Shown here: piece after piece, positions 42,329-58,730 of the stretch
Numbering within the stretch: position 1 is the first letter of the stretch
Layout of the letters: each line of letters begins with the position of its first letter
Assembly: GCF_030546645.1 (NCBI RefSeq)
Contig: NZ_JAUOTO010000004.1
Span: 868,001-932,000, forward strand
Length of the DNA: 64,000 nt
Source of the DNA: Flavitalea plasmicola
GTDB taxonomy: Bacteria; Bacteroidota; Bacteroidia; Chitinophagales; Chitinophagaceae
Reading direction: 5' to 3'
Position numbers and translations under genes: made by a program
Notes under the pieces: generated by a model
The model's input: only the letters and a program-made list of their open reading frames with translations
What the model was told of the DNA's origin: nothing
Databases searched by the model: none

Positions 42329-42461
42329 TCTCGCGGGCCATTGCCCGGGAGACCGGGTAGGGTTGACTATTAACCAAAACCGACCCAAGGCATGACCATA
42401 ATGAAGAAGATGATCTTTCCTATTCAAAAGGTGAAACTATATAATAGCAAGAAGTCGAGTG

Positions 42462-45400
42462 ATGAAAGCAATAAATTATGCCCGGATCTTTTATACGGCA
42501 GGTATGTCGTTTTTCGCGTCGCTGTGCATTCTTACGTCTTTTGCCCAAGTGCGTCTCCCCCGTCTTATCAGCGATGGCATGGTCCTGCAGCGGGACAGCA
42601 AGGTGCTTATCTGGGGATGGGCGGCTCCCGGCGAAAAAGTGACTGTGCATTTCGATGGCCATTCGTCTTCGGCCGTCGCGGGCGGCGATGGAAAATGGAC
42701 TGTGGAGCTGGCGCCCATGTCTGCCGGCGGTCCCTATGACATGCGCATCGACGCATCTGATGAGGTACTGGTCAAGGACATACTTATAGGAGACGTGTGG
42801 TTGTGTTCCGGTCAATCGAATATGGAGTTGCCCATGGAAAGGGTAAAAGAAAAATATGCCGATGAAATAGCGCGGTCCGCCAATCCAATGATCAGGCAAT
42901 TCGCGCCCCGCATGCAGTACGACTTCAGCAGGCCGCGGGAAGACTTTCAGGCAGGTGGCTGGCAGTCTGCAACGCCGGCGACAGTGCTTGCCTTTTCCGC
43001 CGTGGGTTATTTTTTCGCCAAAGAACTTTATGAAAGATACCATATACCCATTGGCCTGATAAAGGCCCCGGTGGGAGGATCGCCTGCCGAGGCCTGGCTG
43101 AGTGAAGAGGCCCTGCAGCAATTCCCCGATCACTTAGCCGTTGCGGCCAAGTATAAAGACCCTTCTTATGCCGAAAGCATCCACCGGAAGGAGGACTCCG
43201 TCAATAAAGCCTGGTACCAGCGCATAGCGCAGCAGGATGCCGGACTGCATGATGTAAAGTCCTGGTCCGACCCTGCCTATGATGCGACTGAATGGCGGGA
43301 GATGGACATACCCGGCTTCTGGTCCGACCAGGGCCTACCCCAGGTCAACGGCGTGGTGTGGTTCCGGAAAGATATCGAGGTGCCTGAGCAGCTGACGGGG
43401 CGATCTGTGAAGCTGATGCTGGGGCGTATTGTCGACCTGGACTCGGTGTATGTGAATGGCGTATTCGTAGGGACCACCGGGTATCAGTATCCGCCCAGAA
43501 GATATGAGATACCCGCCGGAATACTGAAGCCCGGCAGGAATACCCTTGTCATAAGAGTGATCAACAGCGCCGGCCAGGGCGGCTTTATCACCGATAAGCC
43601 CTATTGGATGGGACTGGAAGGCAACCGCATCGACCTGCGGGGAAAATGGCGTTACAAGCTGGGCGCCACGGCCACACCGCTGCCATCCACCACTTTCTTT
43701 CAATATAAGCCCCTGGGATTATTCAATGGTATGATCGCTCCGCTGCTGCATACTGCCGTCAAGGGGGTCATATGGTACCAGGGTGAGTCGAATGCCGGCA
43801 GGGCCTGGGAGTACCGGAGTTTATTCAGCGCTATGATCGCCGATTGGCGTTGGCACTGGAGAGCAGACGACCTGCCATTCCTCTATGTACAGCTGGCCAA
43901 TTTTATGGAGGCAAAAGCACAGCCTTCCGAAAGTGACTGGGCGGCCTTGCGCGAAGCACAGCTGCAGACGCTGGTCGTCCCACGAACAGGCATGGCCGTG
44001 GCGACGGATGTCGGAGAGTGGAACGATCTTCATCCGCTGGATAAATATGATGTCGGCAAACGGCTTGCTTTGGCGGCCCGCGCGATAGCTTATGGGGAGA
44101 AGGGGCTGGTGTACAGTGGTCCGCTGTATAGTTCGATGCGCAGGGAGGGTAACGCCATACGGATAAGGTTTACATCCATCGGCAGCGGGCTGACGGCCAA
44201 AGGGGGCGGCGCGCTGAAAGGCTTTGCCATAGCCGGCCCTGACAAACATTTTGTATGGGCCCATGCCATGATCGAGGGCGCCGACGTGGTGGTGCAGAGC
44301 GGGCAGGTGAGCGATCCGGTGGCAGTGCGCTATGCCTGGGCCGACAATCCGGAAGGCGCGAACCTATATAACAAGGAAGGCCTTCCAGCTTCTCCTTTCC
44401 GCACGGATACGATTGGACCCGTTGTTCCCCCCGTGCGCCTGACGGCTGAGCAGGACCATCGTCGTATGATGCAGTTGCTCCATATCGATTCTCTCCGTCC
44501 GGGACCTTCCGGCAATCCGCAGGCAACCAATGCCGCCAACGTCGATGAGTCAAAGGCCAGTCCCTATGTCAGCCTGCCGGACCCGCTGGTACTGAACAAT
44601 GGGAAGAAGGTAACAACTTCAGCCAGGTGGTGGGGGCAGCGACGTCCTGAGATCGTGGAAGATTTCGACAGGGAGGTTTATGGACGTATGCCGGCGGGTA
44701 TTCCTGCGGTGCGATGGGAGATCGTGAGCGCCGCACAGGAGAAGGTGGGAGATTTTTCCGTCATAACAAAGAAATTATCGGGCCATGTGGACAACAGCAG
44801 CTATCCGGCCGTCACCGTGAACATCGAACTTACCCTGACAACGCCGGCCAATGCCCCGGGGCCGGTGCCAGTGATCATGGAATTCGGCTTTCGATGGCCG
44901 GCTGGCATGCGGCCGCCCGATCCACCTTCGGGTCCTCAGGCTCCGGCCTGGCAGGAACAGGTGCTGGCAAAAGGCTGGGGCTATGCAATTATCTATCCCA
45001 CCAGCATACAAGCCGACAACGGAGCTGGACTGACGGAAGGTATTATCGGACTGGTAAATAAGGGGCAGCCCCGCAAGCCTGATGATTGGGGCGCCTTGAA
45101 AGCCTGGGCCTGGGGCGCCAGCCGTGCGCTGGATTATTTCGGGACAGACCCTGCCGTGGACGCAAAACAGGTAGCCATTGAAGGGCTTTCCCGTTATGGA
45201 AAAGCTGCTATTGTCGCCATGGCCTATGAGCCACGCCTGGCGATTGCCTTTGTAGGTTCTTCCGGCGAAGGCGGCGTCAAGATCCATCGACGACATTTTG
45301 GCGAGCAGGTGGAGAACGTTGCCTCATCCGCCGAATACCATTGGATGGCTGGTAATTTCCTGAAATATGCGGGACCGCTTACTCCCAACGACCTGCCCGT

Positions 45401-45743
45401 GGATGCCCACGAGCTTGTGGCGCTCTGCGCTCCCCGGCCAGTGTTTATCAGCTCGGGTTCCCCCCAGGTGGAAGGCAACTGGGTAGACGCGAGAGGCATG
45501 TTCCTTGGAGGCGTATATGCCGGACCTGTTTACAGGCTGCTGGGAAAAAAGGACCTTGGCACGACGGAGTTCCCTCCCATGGAGACGGCACTCACCGGCG
45601 GAGAGATAGCCTTCCGCCAGCATAGCGGAGGACATACCACTGGTCCGAACTGGCCGGCATTCCTGCAATTTGCCGGTCGCTATTTTAAGACCCCGAAGGA
45701 TCACAGCGGAGCGAAAGGCGCTAACGCAGTATTGGCAAAGTGA
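42462..45743 (+). CDS. Sialate O-acetylesterase / CE15 glucuronoyl esterase fusion
   Basis: This 1093-aa secreted protein joins two esterase modules. Residues about 30-640 are a SASA/SGNH acetylesterase with Ser119 in [12 protein letters not shown] and the late Asp/His in [11 protein letters not shown]. Residues about 690-1090 are a CE15 glucuronoyl esterase with nucleophile Ser910 in [10 protein letters not shown] and the His region [14 protein letters not shown]15 splits the ester between lignin and glucuronoxylan. The fusion would deacetylate and de-esterify the same polymer. An in-frame GTG one codon upstream is possible. Confidence 0.87.
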
Positions 45744-50247: not shown

Positions 50248-51348
50248 ATGCTGAAGGACGTAAAGTTTCGCCCAAAGAAAATTCTCTTTACGATAGGTTC
50301 CCCCAACCAGGCAAGCCAGATGCATCAGATAGCATCCCTGTTGCCGGAATACGACTGCTACTTCAGCCAGTTATACAGCAAGCATCCCATCGTCAAATGG
50401 TGTAAGAAGAAAGGCTTCCTTGAAAACACGATCCTCTCAGGTGAATTTAAAAGAAAGGGAGATGCCTACCTGCAACGGCATCGTTTACGCAATGATTACG
50501 CCCGCGGGATCTACGGGCATGAATATGACATGGCTGTTCTATGCACGGACTTGCTGGTCGCCAAAGAGTTGCGCCGTTTGAAAACAGTTTGGGTACAGGA
50601 AGGCATGACGGACCCTGTTACGCCTCTTGCTAAGTGGACGCATCGCCTGGGACTTCCATCCTGGTCTGCCATGAACACGGCTTTCAACGGATGCAGCAAT
50701 ATCTGTGATATTTACTGCGCGGCCAGCGCGGGGTACAAAGCGCAATTCAGCCGGTGGGGTACTGAAGCTGCCAGGATCTTTGTTACGGGCATACCGAATT
50801 ACGATCATGCAGCGGTCCACCTTGACAACGATTTTCCGCATCATAACTATGTGATGGTGGCTACATCGGACATCCGTGAATGCTTTAACAAGGATGACCG
50901 GCCGGGCTTCATCCGCCGATGCGTGGAGATCGCCGCCGGCAGACCTTTACTTTTCAAGCTGCATCCTAATGAGCTAAAGGAACGCGCCATTGCCGAGATC
51001 CGTCAATATGCTCCTGCCGGCGCAATGATCTTCACGGAAGGTAATACGGATCATATGATCGCCAACTGCGATGAGCTGATCACCCAGTACTCCACAGTGG
51101 TGTACACGGGTATCGCCCTAGGTAAAAAGGTACATTCCTATTTTGATGTGGAGAAGCTAAGGCAGCTGGCCCCCATCCAGAATGGCGGCGGCTCGGCGGC
51201 AAGTATAGCGGACCTGTGCCGGCGATATATCGAGTTCAAAGGCACCCGGGAAGACTTTTTGGCCAGGACCACTATTCATCAACATACAAACAGTAGCCAT
51301 GAACGACTGCGGGAAAAAGATCGTCACTATTATTCAAACCAGGCGTGA
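50248..51348 (+). CDS. GT-B-like glycosyltransferase or epimerase-fold protein
   Basis: The 366-aa protein resembles CDP-glycerol/capsule transferase and UDP-GlcNAc-2-epimerase-like folds, with the conserved LLFKLHPNELKERAI and a C-terminal TQYSTVVYTGIALGKKV helix. No signal peptide is seen. It heads the run of sugar-pathway genes, and its last 50 nt overlap the next gene, so I infer it transfers or modifies the product sugar. The exact activity is unknown. Confidence 0.6.
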   Translation: MLKDVKFRPKKILFTIGSPNQASQMHQIASLLPEYDCYFSQLYSKHPIVKWCKKKGFLENTILSGEFKRKGDAYLQRHRLRNDYARGIYGHEYDMAVLCTDLLVAKELRRLKTVWVQEGMTDPVTPLAKWTHRLGLPSWSAMNTAFNGCSNICDIYCAASAGYKAQFSRWGTEAARIFVTGIPNYDHAAVHLDNDFPHHNYVMVATSDIRECFNKDDRPGFIRRCVEIAAGRPLLFKLHPNELKERAIAEIRQYAPAGAMIFTEGNTDHMIANCDELITQYSTVVYTGIALGKKVHSYFDVEKLRQLAPIQNGGGSAASIADLCRRYIEFKGTREDFLARTTIHQHTNSSHERLREKDRHYYSNQA

Positions 51349-52978
51349 GTCCACCCGGCTGCCTGACAAAGCGCTGATGCCTCTTGCAGGCAAACCATTA
51401 TTTGTCCAGCAGGTGCGCAGGATACAGGCTGCAAACCTGGCAGGAACGGTGGTTGTAGCGACAACGCCCTCACAGGCCGACGACAGCATTGTGGAAATAT
51501 GCAGGCAGGAAGGTATCGAATGTTTCCGGGGGCATGCTGCCGACCTGCTGGACAGGCATTACCGGGCGGCGTGCCACTATGAGGCTGATGTTGTGCTGAA
51601 GATCCCCAGCGATTGTCCCCTGATAGATCCTGCGATCGTCGACCAGGTGATCGCCTACTATCTGCATCATGAGCATGAATATGACTATGTCAGCAATCTG
51701 CATCCGGCCACCTGGCCTGATGGTAATGACGTGGAGGTCATGTCGCTGGAGGTCCTGAAAAAAGCCCATGCCCATGCGACCCTGCTGATGGAAAGGGAGC
51801 ACACCACTCCGTATATCTGGGAAAGACCGGAGCAGTTCCGCATTGGCAATGTGGTGATGGAGGGAGGATTGAATTATTCCATGACGCACCGGTGGACGAT
51901 TGATTACCAGGCGGACTACCAGTTTATACAGGCTGTGTATGAGCAGCTGTACCCGTCGGATCCATTGTTTGGAGTCCGGGAGATCCTGGAGCTACTGGAG
52001 AGGAGGCCGGATATTTATCGGATCAATGCATCCCTGGCAGGCGTCAATTGGTATCGACATCACCTGGATGAACTAAAAACCATATCTCCGGGCGAGACCA
52101 GAAACCCCTCCGTGACAAATTCCAAGCTCCAGCGACTGCAGTCCATTGCTCTGCGTGTCAGGGAGCATATCATACGCATGTCCGCCGGCGGCGGATGTTT
52201 TATCGGCGCTTCGCTTTCCTGCGTCGAATTAATGGTCTACCTCTACTCGGAATTTCTCCGCCATGGACCCAAAGGCGGATCGGACCCTCACAGGGATTAT
52301 CTTTTCTTATCCAAAGGTCATGATGTGCCCGCCCTTTACGGCACTTTTGTGGAGTTGGGCCTCCTGGATCCAGGCCGGCTTGATAATCATCTATCTACCA
52401 CTGATAGCATTTATTGGCATCCCAACAGGGCCATTCCCGGCGTAGAGTTTCATTCCGGCTCCCTCGGGCATCTTCCGGCCGTGGCGGCCGGCGTGGCGCT
52501 GGACTGCAGGCTGCGGGGCGCGGACAACCGGGTCATCGTCATTACAGGCGACGGCGAGCTGAATGAAGGCAGTGTCTGGGAAACCATATTAGTCGCCGAT
52601 GCGCAAAAGCTGGATAACCTCACCCTTGTAGTGGACCGCAACCAATTCCAGGCGAATATCCGGACGGAAGAGCTGGTGCCGCTGGAACCATTGGCGGACA
52701 AGTTCAGGGCATTTGGATGCCGTGTTCGCCGTATTGACGGACATGATTTTTTGCAATTAGAGGAAGCATTCCGGGAGCTGCCGGTTGCCGATGGCACCGG
52801 TGGTATGAATGTCATCATCGCCGATACGGTAAGAGGGAAGGGGCTGCCCAGCATCGAGGCCAGGGCCGACCGTTGGTTCTGTGCATTCACGGCACCGGAA
52901 ATAGAGCAGCTGTTGCAGGAATTACACGGCCTTAAAGAAGAAATACTTATAACATCGGAAAGCCTGGTCGTACGTTGA
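51299..52978 (+). CDS. Cytidylyltransferase fused to transketolase N-terminal half
   Basis: The 559-aa protein has two parts. Residues about 6-250 are a SpsF/NeuA-like nucleotidyltransferase (TIIQTRRESTRLPDKALMPL, LKIPSDCPLID). Residues about 275-555 are a transketolase N subunit (LSKGHDVPALYGTF, the TPP-binding GDGELNEGSVWE, VDRNQFQ). The C subunit is the next gene. The frame is continuous through both modules. This fusion implies that the ketol-transfer step and the CMP activation belong to one sugar pathway. Confidence 0.82.
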   Translation: MNDCGKKIVTIIQTRRESTRLPDKALMPLAGKPLFVQQVRRIQAANLAGTVVVATTPSQADDSIVEICRQEGIECFRGHAADLLDRHYRAACHYEADVVLKIPSDCPLIDPAIVDQVIAYYLHHEHEYDYVSNLHPATWPDGNDVEVMSLEVLKKAHAHATLLMEREHTTPYIWERPEQFRIGNVVMEGGLNYSMTHRWTIDYQADYQFIQAVYEQLYPSDPLFGVREILELLERRPDIYRINASLAGVNWYRHHLDELKTISPGETRNPSVTNSKLQRLQSIALRVREHIIRMSAGGGCFIGASLSCVELMVYLYSEFLRHGPKGGSDPHRDYLFLSKGHDVPALYGTFVELGLLDPGRLDNHLSTTDSIYWHPNRAIPGVEFHSGSLGHLPAVAAGVALDCRLRGADNRVIVITGDGELNEGSVWETILVADAQKLDNLTLVVDRNQFQANIRTEELVPLEPLADKFRAFGCRVRRIDGHDFLQLEEAFRELPVADGTGGMNVIIADTVRGKGLPSIEARADRWFCAFTAPEIEQLLQELHGLKEEILITSESLVVR

Positions 52979-52991
52979 AAAAATAAAAATT

Positions 52992-53903
52992 ATGACTTAC
53001 GAAGAGTTGTTGATAGAGACAGCCCTGGCGGATGAGCGTATCATCGTCATGACGGCGGAGAACAGGGCCCTGGTCCGGAATGTGCCGAAGGCATTGGGCC
53101 ACCGCTTTGTGGATACGGGCATCACGGAGCAAACCCTTGTCGGCATGGCAGCCGGTCTTGCTTTAAGAGGACGTATTCCCATCATACACGCGCTGGCGCC
53201 TTTTCTCACCATGCGGGCCTTTGAATTCATCCGAACGGATGTCGGGATCGCTCATTTACCTGTGAAGCTCAGCGGCTATATCCCCGGCCTGCTGTCTGAC
53301 GGTAATGGACCCACGCACCAATCCATCGAGGATGTAGCCATCATGCGCGGGATACCGGGTATGGAAGTATATTGTCCTGCTGACGAGGATGACCTGGTGA
53401 GGTCGCTGCCGGCCATCTGGTCTTCGGATGCCCCGGCCTATGTCCGGGTGAATCACAAAAAAGGCGAGTATACTCACCGGCCTTTTGAAAGAGGTAAGGC
53501 GGAAGTGGTTACAGAAGGCACGGATATCACCATATTGGTATATGGGTTCTTATTCGAGAATGCTTTAAGGGCTCAGCGAATCCTGCAGCGGGAGGGGCTG
53601 TCGGTGGGACTGCTGAACATGCGCTCACTAAAGCCCGTAGATGAAGCTGCCATCGTGCGCGCGGCCAAAAGGTCGCGGATGCTGGTGACCATCGAAGACC
53701 ACCTGTTGACAGGGGGGCTATATTCCATCGTAGCTGAAGTCCTGCTGAGAGCCGGTGTTACGGTACGCACCTTACCGATGGCTTTTGAAGAACGTTGGTT
53801 CAAACCCGGTTTGCTGACGGGGGTGTTGGAGACCGAAGGGCTCACGCCGGAGAAAATTGCCGGAAAGATATTTACATCATCCAATCTGTTATATGCCGAA
53901 TAA
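52992..53903 (+). CDS. Transketolase C-terminal half
   Basis: The 303-aa protein carries the Pyr domain, with the catalytic Glu in FVDTGITEQTLVGMAAGLAL, and the C-terminal regulatory domain (VYGFLFENALRAQRIL, VTIEDHLLTGGLYSIV). It completes the TPP enzyme with the N half encoded 14 nt upstream. It may use a special sugar rather than central pentose phosphates, given the context. Confidence 0.88.
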   Translation: MTYEELLIETALADERIIVMTAENRALVRNVPKALGHRFVDTGITEQTLVGMAAGLALRGRIPIIHALAPFLTMRAFEFIRTDVGIAHLPVKLSGYIPGLLSDGNGPTHQSIEDVAIMRGIPGMEVYCPADEDDLVRSLPAIWSSDAPAYVRVNHKKGEYTHRPFERGKAEVVTEGTDITILVYGFLFENALRAQRILQREGLSVGLLNMRSLKPVDEAAIVRAAKRSRMLVTIEDHLLTGGLYSIVAEVLLRAGVTVRTLPMAFEERWFKPGLLTGVLETEGLTPEKIAGKIFTSSNLLYAE

Positions 53904-55230
53904 AGTTGCTTTCAATGAAGCGTACCCCGTCGTAACGGGGTCGGATGGCCTGTACGAGCGTGCATTGCCGATCATGACGCCCGTCACCCAGACGCTGGCC
54001 AAAGGTCCCGGACAATATATCAACGGTGTGGCGCCGAAATACCTGAAAAGGGGGAAAGGCGCCCGCGTATGGGATGTGGATGGAAATGAGTTCCTGGATT
54101 ATAATATGGCGATTGGTCCCTTGTCGCTGGGTTACTGCTATCCCCGCGTAGATGAGGCCATCATTGCCCAGCTGAAAGATGGGATCACATTTTCCATGAT
54201 GCATGAGCTGGAAGTCGTGCTGGCGGAATTGATCCATGACATCATTCCCAATGCGGAAGCGATCCGGATCAGCAAGACAGGCGCGGATGTCACCAGCGCT
54301 GCCGTTCGTGTCGCCAGGGCTTTCACCGGCAGGAAGAAAGTGCTTTGCTGCGGCTATCATGGATGGCATGACTGGTATATCTCCGTCACGAGCCGCAGTA
54401 GCGGGATACCTCAAGAGGTCAGGGACCTGACCTCGACCTTCGGCTACAATGATATCGACTCTGTAAAAAATGCGTTGGATGAGGATACTGCCTGTGTGAT
54501 CCTGGAGCCGTTTGTGTTCGAGGCGCCGCGGCATAATTTCTTACAGGAGCTAAAGGACCTATGTGAGGCTAACGGGACCTTACTCATATTTGACGAAATG
54601 TGGACCGGCTTTCGCATCGCCCTGGGTGGTGCGCAGGAATTCTTCGGTGTGACACCTGACCTGGCCTGCTATTCCAAGGCATTTGCCAATGGGATGCCTA
54701 TTTCATTGCTGACAGGGAGGAAAGAGGTCATGGACCTGTTCAAAGAGGAGGTCTTTTTCTTCACCACTTTTGGGGGGGAAGCTTTGTCATTGGCTGCGGC
54801 AGTGGCTACGATACAGGAGATGAAGGAGAAGAATGTCGCCGCGTACCTGGCGGAGAAAGGCAAAAGGATAAAGGACGGCTATAATATGCTGGCAGCCGAG
54901 CTGGGCATCGCACATTACACAGGGTGTACGGGATATGATTGCAGGTCCCTGGTGAGCTTCGATGCTGTTGCGGGCAATCCCCTGGAGCTCAAATCTTTTG
55001 TTCAGCAGGAGATGCTCAGGCGCGGTGTTCTATGGTCTGGGTTTCACAATATGAGCTTTAGCCATACGGATGAGGAGGTGAATTACACGCTGGCAGCCTA
55101 CAGGGAAGTCCTTGGCTTGCTGAAAGAGGCAGTGACCCGCCAGGAGGTGGCATCCTTGCTGCGGGGAGCGCCTATCGAACCGGTGTTTCGTAAGGTCAGC
55201 AATTTCAATACAAAGCCTGTGACAAAATAA
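53893..55230 (+). CDS. Class III aminotransferase (glutamate-1-semialdehyde aminomutase-like)
   Basis: The 445-aa PLP enzyme has DVDGNEFLDYNMAIGPLSLG near the N-terminus, the cofactor-site LLIFDEMWTGFRIA and the PLP lysine in CYSKAFANGMPISLLTG. Homologues in surface-polysaccharide loci aminate sugar carbonyls. The ATG overlaps the transketolase stop by 11 nt. True HemL is unlikely because of the locus. Confidence 0.85.
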   Translation: MPNKVAFNEAYPVVTGSDGLYERALPIMTPVTQTLAKGPGQYINGVAPKYLKRGKGARVWDVDGNEFLDYNMAIGPLSLGYCYPRVDEAIIAQLKDGITFSMMHELEVVLAELIHDIIPNAEAIRISKTGADVTSAAVRVARAFTGRKKVLCCGYHGWHDWYISVTSRSSGIPQEVRDLTSTFGYNDIDSVKNALDEDTACVILEPFVFEAPRHNFLQELKDLCEANGTLLIFDEMWTGFRIALGGAQEFFGVTPDLACYSKAFANGMPISLLTGRKEVMDLFKEEVFFFTTFGGEALSLAAAVATIQEMKEKNVAAYLAEKGKRIKDGYNMLAAELGIAHYTGCTGYDCRSLVSFDAVAGNPLELKSFVQQEMLRRGVLWSGFHNMSFSHTDEEVNYTLAAYREVLGLLKEAVTRQEVASLLRGAPIEPVFRKVSNFNTKPVTK

Positions 55231-55235
55231 GAAAT

Positions 55236-56039
55236 ATGGAACTTTTCTCACTATCCGGCAAAATAGCAGTGGTCACAGGGGCCTGTGGCCTACTGGGCAA
55301 GAGTCATTGTGAAGCGCTGGCAGAAGCAGGCGCGCTGGTGGTGGCAGCAGACCTGGAGGAAGGGCGATGTGTCCGGGTTGCGGAGGAACTGGGGGGACAG
55401 CATATGGGGTTAGGGGTAGACGTGACGGATATTAACTCTTTGCAGGGAGCCAGGGAACGTATCGTAAGCAGGTATGGACGCATCGATGTGCTGGTCAACA
55501 ATGCAGCCATCAATGACAAGTTTGAAGATCCCGTCCTGGGCGCCAGGCAATCTATGTTCGAGCACTATCCCCTGGAGATGTGGAACAGGAGCTGGCAGGT
55601 GAATGTCAGCGGGGTATTCCTGTGCAGCCAGATCCTGGGAGGGGTTATGGCGGAACAGGGGTCGGGCAGCATCATTAATATTTCATCTACTTACGGTGTC
55701 GTGGCACCGGACCAGCGCATCTACCGTAATGAGGCCGGAGAGCAGACATTTTACAAGTCGCCTGCCTACCCTGTGACGAAGTCGGCTGTGATCGGCTTTA
55801 CCAGGTTCCTGGCTGCTTATTGGGGACATCGTGGGGTGCGGGTCAATACGTTATCGCCAGGTGGGGTAGAGAATAGCCAGGATGCATTTTTCGTAGGCAA
55901 TTATTCCAGCAAGACGCTGCTGGGCCGGATGGCGACCCCGGTGGACTATAAGGGCGCCATCGTTTTTCTGGCCGGGGATGCTTCTGCCTATATGACTGGA
56001 GGCAACCTGATAGTGGATGGTGGCTGGACGGCTATTTGA
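55236..56039 (+). CDS. SDR-family oxidoreductase
   Basis: The 267-aa protein has the cofactor loop VVTGACGLLG, VNNAAIN and the Tyr/Lys pair in SPAYPVTKSAVIG. It lies 5 nt after the aminotransferase. An oxidation or reduction step of the sugar precursor is inferred from context. Confidence 0.85.
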   Translation: MELFSLSGKIAVVTGACGLLGKSHCEALAEAGALVVAADLEEGRCVRVAEELGGQHMGLGVDVTDINSLQGARERIVSRYGRIDVLVNNAAINDKFEDPVLGARQSMFEHYPLEMWNRSWQVNVSGVFLCSQILGGVMAEQGSGSIINISSTYGVVAPDQRIYRNEAGEQTFYKSPAYPVTKSAVIGFTRFLAAYWGHRGVRVNTLSPGGVENSQDAFFVGNYSSKTLLGRMATPVDYKGAIVFLAGDASAYMTGGNLIVDGGWTAI

Positions 56040-56069: not shown

Positions 56070-56570
56070 ATGAGTGAAGATCAACTTAAGGTATCCGCAG
56101 CACGGATAAAGCTTCTGCTGACGGATGTCGACGGCGTATTGACAGACAACGGCGTGTACTATTCGGAGAATGGCGAAGCGATGAAGCGGTTTTCCATCCG
56201 CGACGGAATGGGCGTTGAACGCCTTCGTAAGCTGGCAGGCATCGACACGGGGATCATCACCGGAGAGACCTCTCCTTCGGTGGTTCGCCGGGCAGAGAAG
56301 CTCCAGATCCGGGAATTGCATCTGGGTATCAGGAACAAGCTGGACAGGGTTACGGAGATCATGCAACGTCTTCAGCTGCAGTGGCAGGAGATCGCCTATA
56401 TCGGAGATGATGTCAATGACCTGGAAGTGATGGAAAAAGCCGGTTTGACGGCCTGTCCTGCCGACGCAATGCCCCAGGTGAGCGAAATAGTGCGCTACCA
56501 TTGCCGGAACGAGGGTGGCTATGGCGCTTTCAGGGAATTCGCCGAATGGTTGATAGAACTTAAAAAATAA
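56070..56570 (+). CDS. KdsC-like HAD phosphatase
   Basis: The 166-aa HAD hydrolase has the nucleophile/acid pair in LLLTDVDGVLTDNGVYY, the Thr motif TGIITGETS, and late metal Asps in YIGDDVNDLEVM. It matches 3-deoxy-octulosonate-8-phosphate phosphatase and nonulosonate-9-phosphate phosphatases. Its place just before the NeuB-like gene suggests the condensing step gives a phosphorylated product. Confidence 0.88.
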   Translation: MSEDQLKVSAARIKLLLTDVDGVLTDNGVYYSENGEAMKRFSIRDGMGVERLRKLAGIDTGIITGETSPSVVRRAEKLQIRELHLGIRNKLDRVTEIMQRLQLQWQEIAYIGDDVNDLEVMEKAGLTACPADAMPQVSEIVRYHCRNEGGYGAFREFAEWLIELKK

Positions 56571-56575
56571 AGAAT

Positions 56576-57502
56576 ATGAACACTTTTCATGTGAGCAGCA
56601 AAAGAAGTATTGGCGCCGGCCAGCCTGTGTACATCATTGCTGAAATAGGGATCAACCACAATGGGTCCCTGGACATTGCGAAGCGACTGATCGACGAAGC
56701 CGTACAGGCAGGAGCCGATGCCGTTAAGTTCCAGAAGCGGACGCCTGAGCTTTGCACGCCCAGGGATCAGTGGCACCTGGAAAGGGATACGCCCTGGGGA
56801 AGAATGAGCTATATCAATTACAGACATATGATCGAGCTGGGATTCGATGAGTACGGAGCCATCGATTCGTATTGTAAGGAGAAGGGGATCGATTGGTTCG
56901 TATCCTGCTGGGACGAGGCTGCCGTCGACTTTATGGAACAATTCGATCCCGGGGTTTACAAGTTTGCCTCTGCCTGCCTTACCGATCACGACCTGATAGC
57001 AAGGGTCAAACGCACAGGCCGACCCTATATCCTTTCCACCGGCATGTCCACGATGAGTGAGATCACAGCAGCTGTTGACAAGTTCGGGACGGACAATCTC
57101 ATGGTGGCTCATTCCACGTCAGCGTATCCCTGTCCGCCGCAGGAGCTGAATCTCCGGATGGTACAGACCTTGATGGACCTGTATCCGGATACACCTGTAG
57201 GTTATTCCGGGCATGAGACGGGGCTGGCGACGACCGTAGCGGCCGTGGCATTGGGCGCTTGTTTTGTAGAAAGACATTTCACGCTCGACAGGGCCATGTG
57301 GGGGTCCGACCATGCAGCCTCCGTGGAACCGCAGGGCATGCAAAAGCTGGTACGGGACATACGTGATGTGGAGCTGGCACTGGGCGATGGCATCAAGCGC
57401 GTATACGAAAGTGAGCTGGGCGCTATGAAACGGCTGAGAAGAAGCAACAAGCTACAAGCTACAAGCGGGAAGCTACAAGCTGCAAGCTACAAGGAGAGGT
57501 GA
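56576..57502 (+). CDS. NeuB-family nonulosonate synthase lacking the SAF domain
   Basis: The 308-aa protein has the NeuB TIM barrel: AEIGINHNGSLDIAKRLI, DAVKFQKRTPE, STGMSTMSEI, HSTSAYPCPPQELN and ERHFTLDRAMWGSDHAAS. NeuB enzymes condense PEP with an aldose. The usual C-terminal SAF/antifreeze-like domain (about 60 residues) is absent. The last 20 or so residues (LQATSGKLQAASYKER) come from a CTACAAG repeat tract. Truncation by the repeat is likely. Confidence 0.85.
   Translation: MNTFHVSSKRSIGAGQPVYIIAEIGINHNGSLDIAKRLIDEAVQAGADAVKFQKRTPELCTPRDQWHLERDTPWGRMSYINYRHMIELGFDEYGAIDSYCKEKGIDWFVSCWDEAAVDFMEQFDPGVYKFASACLTDHDLIARVKRTGRPYILSTGMSTMSEITAAVDKFGTDNLMVAHSTSAYPCPPQELNLRMVQTLMDLYPDTPVGYSGHETGLATTVAAVALGACFVERHFTLDRAMWGSDHAASVEPQGMQKLVRDIRDVELALGDGIKRVYESELGAMKRLRRSNKLQATSGKLQAASYKER
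57445..57493. repeat. CTACAAG-type tandem repeat at the NeuB-like 3' end
   Basis: Five or six near-exact AAGCTAC/AAGCTGC units run through the last codons of the synthase. The same unit appears at 5402-5435 between genes. Confidence 0.75.
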
Positions 57503-57505
57503 TCT

Positions 57506-58459
57506 ATGCAGCATATCGTTTATTATACGACCACGGTCCTGCTGATAAGCGTAGGCGTCTTTCTCTGGCTGGAGAGAAAGATACCCTATACCAAGGGACT
57601 ACCCTTGTTCCGGGATGGTTTTTGGGTGGACCTGGTCTGGTATACGCTGATCCAAAGCTATTTTTTAAAGATCCTGATCTTCGACTATATCATTATTCCT
57701 ATAGACAAAGCCTGGCACCTGTCCTCCATGCATCTCGTGGCCTCCTGGCCCCTGGCGCTGCAGGTGCTGTTCTTTTTAGTGGTGCACGACTTTTATATCT
57801 ATTGGTTCCACCGATGGCAACATCATTCCAGGATACTCTGGCGTACCCATGAAGCGCATCATTCCAACAAAGCCGTGGATTGGCTGGCGGGCACCCGGAG
57901 CCACGCTTTGGAAATATTGATCAATCAAACGGTGGAGTTTGCCCCCATCGTCCTGCTGGGCGCCAACCCGTTGATCGTCCCTATTAAAGCGTTGCTGGAT
58001 GCCGTCTGGGGAATGTATATCCACTCCAATATAAATGTGCGCAGCGGCAGATGGCAGTGTATCATCAATGGACCCGAGATGCATCAGTGGCATCATGCCA
58101 ATGACAAAAGAGTGTTCTATGCCAACTTCTCTACCAAGCTGGCCCTTTGGGATTGGTTGTTCGGCACCGCCTTTTTGCCTAATGAGGAGAAGCCGGGCGA
58201 GTATGGACTGTATTATGATTATCCGAAAGATTATTTCCTTCAGCACCTGTTTGCCGTCAAGCGAATGGATGAGGGGAAGCTGGCGGAAAAGTACCGGTGG
58301 TTCCGGGCCTATCATGGTTTTAGAGGAAGGCTGCTGCAACGGATGAAAACTAAAAACATATTTCATGGCCTGGATATACCTGGTGATCGCATCCCTGTTC
58401 GAGATCTGCTGGACATTTTGCCTGAAGTTCATGAGCGTGCAGAAGCTAAGGACCATTAG
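57506..58459 (+). CDS. Fatty acid hydroxylase / sterol desaturase family membrane protein
   Basis: The 317-aa protein has four or more hydrophobic helices and the diiron His clusters HDFYIYWFHRWQHH, THEAHH and HQWHH. The family oxidises lipids or other alkyl groups. The last 32 codons overlap the next gene by 95 nt. Its role in the surrounding sugar locus is not clear. Confidence 0.85.
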   Translation: MQHIVYYTTTVLLISVGVFLWLERKIPYTKGLPLFRDGFWVDLVWYTLIQSYFLKILIFDYIIIPIDKAWHLSSMHLVASWPLALQVLFFLVVHDFYIYWFHRWQHHSRILWRTHEAHHSNKAVDWLAGTRSHALEILINQTVEFAPIVLLGANPLIVPIKALLDAVWGMYIHSNINVRSGRWQCIINGPEMHQWHHANDKRVFYANFSTKLALWDWLFGTAFLPNEEKPGEYGLYYDYPKDYFLQHLFAVKRMDEGKLAEKYRWFRAYHGFRGRLLQRMKTKNIFHGLDIPGDRIPVRDLLDILPEVHERAEAKDH

Positions 58460-58730
58460 CTGGGGAGCCTTCTTTTCCCGACGCGAACATTGGGAGATCC
58501 TGCTGCCATTTGCCGGTTATGTCGTCTTTGGGGTAGGGAATATCATCTTTTTCTCGATGTCCATGAAGCAAATCTCTGCTACTACGGCGCTTGCCGCCTG
58601 GATGGGGCTCACCCTGATAGGCACCAGGCTGGCGGAAATCTATTTCTTCAAGCAGCCTTCCAATCTTTATCAATTCCTGTACATGGGTCTCATTTTGGTG
58701 GGTATTATCGGTCTGAAACAGACCGATTAG
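58365..58730 (+). CDS. SMR-type small membrane transporter
   Basis: The 121-aa protein has four hydrophobic helices and the SMR start MAWIYLVIASLFEICWTFCL, with the membrane Glu at position 13 conserved as in EmrE-like proteins. A longer loop (SWGAFFSRREHWEI) sits after TM1. It overlaps the hydroxylase gene by 95 nt in another frame. It may export a drug or, like ArnE/F types, flip a lipid-linked sugar. Confidence 0.8.
   Translation: MAWIYLVIASLFEICWTFCLKFMSVQKLRTISWGAFFSRREHWEILLPFAGYVVFGVGNIIFFSMSMKQISATTALAAWMGLTLIGTRLAEIYFFKQPSNLYQFLYMGLILVGIIGLKQTD

Follow-up and report, generated by a model that had tools for sequence, protein, structure and literature searches.

The cassette and its fused frame

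The window, by which we mean the whole 64,000-nucleotide stretch of Flavitalea plasmicola DNA that was analysed, contains a cassette whose genes all lie on the same strand, either slightly overlapping or separated by short gaps. Within it, a cytidylyltransferase-type domain (CMP domain) and a transketolase N-subunit (TK-N) share one open reading frame, and the following features were assigned:

50248-51348 (+), GT-B-fold protein, candidate CMP-ulosonate transferase (or 2-epimerase-like), from an AF2 model and structural matches; overlaps the start of the fusion by 50 nt
51299-52978 (+), fusion ORF of 559 residues, CMP-sugar synthetase-like domain plus TK-N, from the ORF listing and Pfam
51299-52066 (+), CTP_transf_3 (SpsF/KdsB-like) cytidylyltransferase domain; Pfam match over residues 10-215, PDB 6oew match over residues 7-241
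52067-52186 (+), junction region, DELKTISPGETRNPS followed by VTNSKLQRLQ..., a low-confidence linker, from the junction comparison, pLDDT and a single-base test
52112-52114 (+), in-frame GTG (the start of GTGA), possible internal start, aligned with the start codon of the relatives' separate TK-N genes
52112-52978 (+), TK-N domain; ThDP motif GDGELNEG...DRN intact, GHP histidine replaced by Phe (F30 of TK-N, F301 of the fusion) and second histidine by Trp (W255, W526 of the fusion)
52992-53903 (+), transketolase C-subunit (TK-C) partner, Transket_pyr plus Transketolase_C (Pfam); catalytic Glu E46 kept, substrate and phosphate residues replaced
53890-55230 (+), class III PLP aminotransferase (PRK06209/GSA-aminomutase-like), from a profile search
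55236-56039 (+), SDR oxidoreductase, from a profile search
56070-56570 (+), KdsC/KDN-9-P-phosphatase-type HAD phosphatase; NF058599 at 166 bits (cut-off 180), TIGR01670 at 151.6 bits (cut-off 107)
56576-57502 (+), NeuB-type PEP-condensing synthase without a detectable SAF domain, from Pfam and profile searches
57506-58459 (+), fatty-acid-hydroxylase superfamily membrane protein (Pfam/NCBIfam), cassette-linked in Bacteroidota
58365-58730 (+), SMR-family small transporter, cassette-linked in Bacteroidota

In the assembled sequence, the frame at 51299-52978 runs for 559 codons without a stop. The original prediction had read it as one frame joining the two enzymes and had proposed a Pfam-type domain search, which indeed recovered both: CTP_transf_3 at residues 10-215 (E 1.5e-23; 84.2 bits against a gathering cut-off of 22.6) and Transketolase_N at residues 301-542 (E 2.2e-18), E-values that exclude a chance match. 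The motifs TRRESTRLPDKAL and GDGELNEGSVWE lie where that prediction had placed them, and the CMP domain carries the nucleotide-binding motif RRESTRLPDK. The closest solved structures were the cytidylyltransferase 6oew for the first half and the split-chain transketolase 6yak for the second. As had also been proposed, the TK C-subunit is the next gene; TK-N and TK-C are thus found on separate polypeptides, the architecture of split-chain transketolases, with the TK-N of the window additionally fused to another enzyme. For the sugar specificity of the CMP domain, all NCBIfam equivalogs scored far under their cut-offs (KdsB 31.6 vs 155.2 bits; PseF 21 vs 205.7).

Among the neighbouring genes is that of the NeuB-type synthase, besides which no other NeuB relative was found in the genome. 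The catalytic domain of the synthase was recognised at 258.6 bits, while the protein scored under the cut-offs of both the NeuB and the PseI equivalogs; it is 308 residues long, its TIGR03569 match stops at position 279 of 329 and no SAF domain was detected at E-values up to 1. The match of the phosphatase to the KDN-9-P model suggests that the NeuB product would be phosphorylated. The protein encoded upstream of the fusion matched no Pfam family at E 0.001. Its AF2 model (pLDDT 86.7) has a GT-B fold, with VIA-align Z scores of 14-18 to GT-B proteins, and matched UDP-GlcNAc 2-epimerase/NeuC, TagF and the polysialyltransferase 5wc6; the motifs FKLHPNE and ITQYST are conserved. Across its family, Epimerase_2 was found weakly in 22/22 members and Glyphos_transf in 13/22 with the better best E-value, and epimerase folds lead the structural ranking. 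On these models the assignment is ambiguous, and the protein could be either a CMP/CDP transferase or an epimerase relative.

Distribution of the cassette

When named genomes were searched with the TK-N family, 80 loci were recovered, among them loci of Puia dinghuensis, Chitinophaga, Hymenobacter, Mucilaginibacter, Flectobacillus and Chloroflexota-type MAGs, in which the cassette genes recur in the same order. The conserved set comprises the GT-B protein, the CMP transferase, TK-N, TK-C, the class III aminotransferase, the SDR, the KdsC-type phosphatase and the NeuB without SAF, usually together with the hydroxylase and the SMR transporter; no additional conserved gene family was found around the 80 loci. 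The cassette ranges over several Bacteroidota families, Chloroflexota and the methanotroph Methylomagnum, the Chloroflexota-type loci being without the hydroxylase and SMR genes. In Methylomagnum ishizawai, the core cassette lies on the 274-kb plasmid pRS11DPr1 (11168-20672), with NeuB before the phosphatase; after it come lplT and two acyltransferases, one of the GNAT type and one for lysophospholipids. This setting suggests horizontal transfer and a link to lipids.

Three genomes (G038, G059 and G227) have the pathway genes distributed among several contigs, and all those tested (TK-N, TK-C, aminotransferase, SDR, NeuB and CMP transferase) are nevertheless present. Because the genes are retained although scattered, they appear to form one pathway regardless of linkage, and we consider this strong evidence for a single pathway. 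No NCBIfam equivalog reached its cut-off for the core enzymes of the cassette. A description of the cassette was not found in the open-access literature searched, an absence that is weak evidence as most subscription papers fall outside that scope.

Many Hymenobacter loci (for example L053-L057) are without a HAD phosphatase next to NeuB; the phosphatase may be encoded elsewhere in these genomes, or the NeuB substrate may differ.

The junction between the two domains

Open frames near 600 residues were scored as fusions only after inspection for stops, and several matches turned out to cross a single one. Judged by its relatives, the window belongs to Puia (Chitinophagaceae). Among about 100 related loci examined, the CMP and TK-N domains are joined without a stop only in the window and in G031 and G023, two Puia genomes that are fused in their own assemblies. 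The expectation that other genomes would share the architecture was therefore borne out weakly, by these two further genomes of the genus, but the architecture is not conserved, as nearly all of the roughly 100 loci have separate genes. Further fusions were found in 0/16 additional cassette-bearing genomes from a class-wide sample of 295 and in 0/8 from a family-wide sample of 396, which ruled out a conserved architecture.

Within the genus, the junctions show every intermediate state. The genes are separate and in different frames in the closest relatives of the window (G006 and G013), they overlap by the four nucleotides ATGA in G029 and G032, and they share a frame with exactly one TAA between them in G003, G008, G011 and G016 (loci L022-L025). 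The GTG at 52112 of the window aligns with the TK-N starts of G013 and G006 (VTNSKLQRLQ vs MTNTTLSDLQ and MINTKLVELQ, respectively). The linkers of G031 and G023 differ from that of the window, and neither has an in-frame ATG or GTG where TK-N begins. At L022-L025, a single substitution or readthrough at the lone TAA would yield a fusion protein.

By a fewest-changes count on the concatenated tree, it takes three changes to account for the fused state, so that the fusion would have originated at least three times. Forcing all three fused rows into one clade was rejected by the AU test (p-AU 1.3e-8), which ruled out a single ancestral fusion; many independent splits from a fused ancestor are the less parsimonious alternative. 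Since the CMP and TK-N genes are ordinarily adjacent, loss of the intervening stop is the simplest origin of a fusion. The explanation we favour, with slightly better than even confidence, is that adjacent genes of the conserved cassette, for a CMP-ulosonate synthetase and a ThDP-enzyme N-subunit, recently fused in the Puia lineage when a short stop/start junction was lost, both enzymes belonging to a putative amino-ulosonic acid pathway.

An assembly artefact would produce the same picture if the genes were in reality two, overlapping by the 4-nt stop/start GTGA, and one spurious base (or two missing ones) had fused them. Indeed, wherever in the linker one base is deleted, the CMP frame then stops at the TGA within GTGA (52112-52115), which coincides exactly with the aligned start of TK-N. 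As removing a single base thereby restores a classical operon overlap, of the kind carried as ATGA by the relatives G032 and G029, the fused frame of the window rests on one base of the assembly, and the linker contains the homopolymers AAAAA and CCCC. However, G006 has the AAAAA run at the same length of five, the genome of the window is 100% complete in 19 contigs, the neighbouring genes are all intact, and two genomes of the genus are fused in their own assemblies with different linkers. Judging from those two fusions and from the intact neighbourhood, fusion is at least tolerated, and we regard an artefact as unlikely.

The original prediction had further taken the fusion as a sign of substrate channelling or co-regulation between the first and last pathway steps. 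The two genes do belong to a common pathway and three origins might hint at selection, but we consider this reading highly improbable: the genes are unfused in nearly all related loci, the fusion arose, by our count, at least three times, the pathway genes are dispersed in the three genomes described above, and the putative TK product lies several steps away from the CMP substrate. Moreover, in the AlphaFold model of the fusion, pLDDT falls under 50 for residues 251-261 and 269-272 and pTM is 0.53; the model thus predicts a disordered linker and no fixed mutual arrangement of the two domains. As assembled, the fusion is real; it is rare and recent, and probably without functional meaning. The fused TK-N would still pair with TK-C, and the CMP domain would work independently on a flexible tether, in which case the fusion would mainly fix the stoichiometry. 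By itself the fusion matters little, as adjacent operon genes fuse easily and the CMP/TK-N pair tolerates joining.

A transketolase relative with a rebuilt active site and its putative pathway

The cassette matters more than the fusion, as it is widely conserved and contains a transketolase relative with a rebuilt active site. We surveyed 76 TK-N and 72 TK-C cassette sequences (HMMER, MAFFT alignments), taking H30 and H263 of yeast transketolase to be the catalytic-site histidines, D477 the acceptor Asp, and R359, S386, H469 and R528 the phosphate-binding residues. The ThDP/metal motif GDGE..N is kept in all 76 TK-N and the catalytic Glu of the pyrimidine domain in all 72 TK-C; the SKGH and WHP histidines are likewise retained. 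The GHP histidine is replaced by Phe, with a Cys directly before it, and the second histidine by Trp (76/76 each), and the acceptor Asp has become Asn (72/72). At the phosphate site, the His is Ile or Val and the Ser position is Arg (both 72/72), the residues listed at the R528 column do not include Arg, and TK-C starts after the R359 position; where human TK and 6yaj have their phosphate-binding positions, cassette TK-C carries other residues. New invariant residues lie near the TK-N active site (Y101, W102, H120, R176, F256 and C257, as well as H114 in 75/76).

Split TKs outside the cassette, including the paralogue in the window's own genome, keep the histidines. The split-chain TK of Carboxydothermus hydrogenoformans (PDB 6yak/6yaj) resembles the cassette enzymes in its separate N and C subunits, its ThDP motifs and its fold family, but it keeps the GHP and WH histidines, the Asp of GEDG and the TH/GR phosphate residues, all of which are replaced in the cassette family. 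In the tree, the cassette TK-N form a clade (support 100/100, stem 2.26) that tentatively groups with Streptomyces TKs (support 96/92, long branch included). Within the collection searched, these azinomycin/vazabitide-type TKs (AziC5/C6 and Streptomyces homologues) are the nearest TK-N that do not belong to the cassette (42-46% identity), and they share with it the GSLGH and DRN.xQ features. Both kinds are encoded beside an aminotransferase, which in the Streptomyces loci is accompanied by LysW/LysX/ArgC-like genes, the setting of the azinomycin/vazabitide amino-acid pathway. In the azinomycin pathway, the AziC5/C6 TK adds two carbons to glutamate semialdehyde, and transamination follows (PMC9570651). 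In contrast to the cassette, no NeuB or CMP enzyme is encoded alongside these TKs that use glutamate semialdehyde. As the Streptomyces TKs keep the first and third histidines and the cassette TKs do not, the Streptomyces-type reaction may not carry over.

This analogue also bears on the roles that the original prediction gave the two fused domains. Their membership in one pathway together with NeuB, the phosphatase, the SDR and the aminotransferase is upheld, but their placement as the first and last steps found no support. In AziC5/C6, among the nearest analogues that have been characterised, the TK takes an aldehyde that has already been formed, immediately ahead of an aminotransferase.

The cassette probably encodes a CMP-activated amino-ulosonic acid pathway that is apparently undescribed in the sources searched. 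Tentatively, and with somewhat less than even confidence, we propose that in this pathway the ThDP enzyme, with its histidines changed to Phe and Trp and its phosphate site removed, builds part of the carbon chain by a reaction new for transketolases. The TK would move a two-carbon ketol unit onto a non-canonical aldehyde, after which the class III aminotransferase would aminate the new ketone and the SDR adjust the oxidation state. NeuB would then join the amino-aldose to PEP, the KdsC-type phosphatase would take off the terminal phosphate, and the CMP domain would activate the resulting amino-ulosonic acid for transfer by the GT-B protein, possibly to a membrane lipid; such an acceptor is hinted at by the linked hydroxylase and SMR genes and, in Methylomagnum, by the acyltransferases. 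The order, substrates and acceptor in this scheme are putative. If it is true, the scheme would add a further way of building the carbon chain of ulosonic acids, as well as a ThDP enzyme whose active site is altered.

Alternatively, instead of transferring a ketol unit, the TK-like pair might catalyse a different ThDP reaction, such as a DXS-like decarboxylative carboligation of a 2-oxoacid. This would agree with the finding that in all members other residues stand in place of both catalytic histidines, of the acceptor Asp and of those at the phosphate site, and TK-C gave similar E-values for dxs (8e-45) and transketolase (1.4e-42). We nonetheless find it doubtful, as split transketolases (6yak) are the closest to TK-N, the tree places TK-N with Streptomyces TKs of the type that transfers ketol units, and the SKGH and WHP histidines and the catalytic Glu are kept.

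Ketol transfer within an amino-ulosonic acid pathway, the reading we prefer, can be compared with the known nonulosonic and ulosonic pathways (NeuB/LegI/PseI; KDN via KDN-9-P), which likewise cluster NeuB, a KdsC/KDN-9-P-type phosphatase and CTP_transf_3. The cassette differs from them in its NeuB without SAF and in the TK pair, class III aminotransferase and SDR that replace the usual NDP-hexose enzymes. In a different nonulosonate locus, on the Solidesulfovibrio carbinolicus plasmid pDCAR1 (1540-7769), a NeuB family member, two cytidylyltransferases (one of them PseF), FabG and a split TK also occur together, but this TK keeps SGHPGG and falls outside the cassette clade, and the gene set differs (PseB, PseF and methyltransferases).

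Elsewhere in the window, a 1094-residue ORF at 42459-45743 combines a SASA sialate-acetylesterase region, a GH2 sugar-binding domain and a glucuronoyl-esterase-type domain, a second multi-enzyme fusion in the window.
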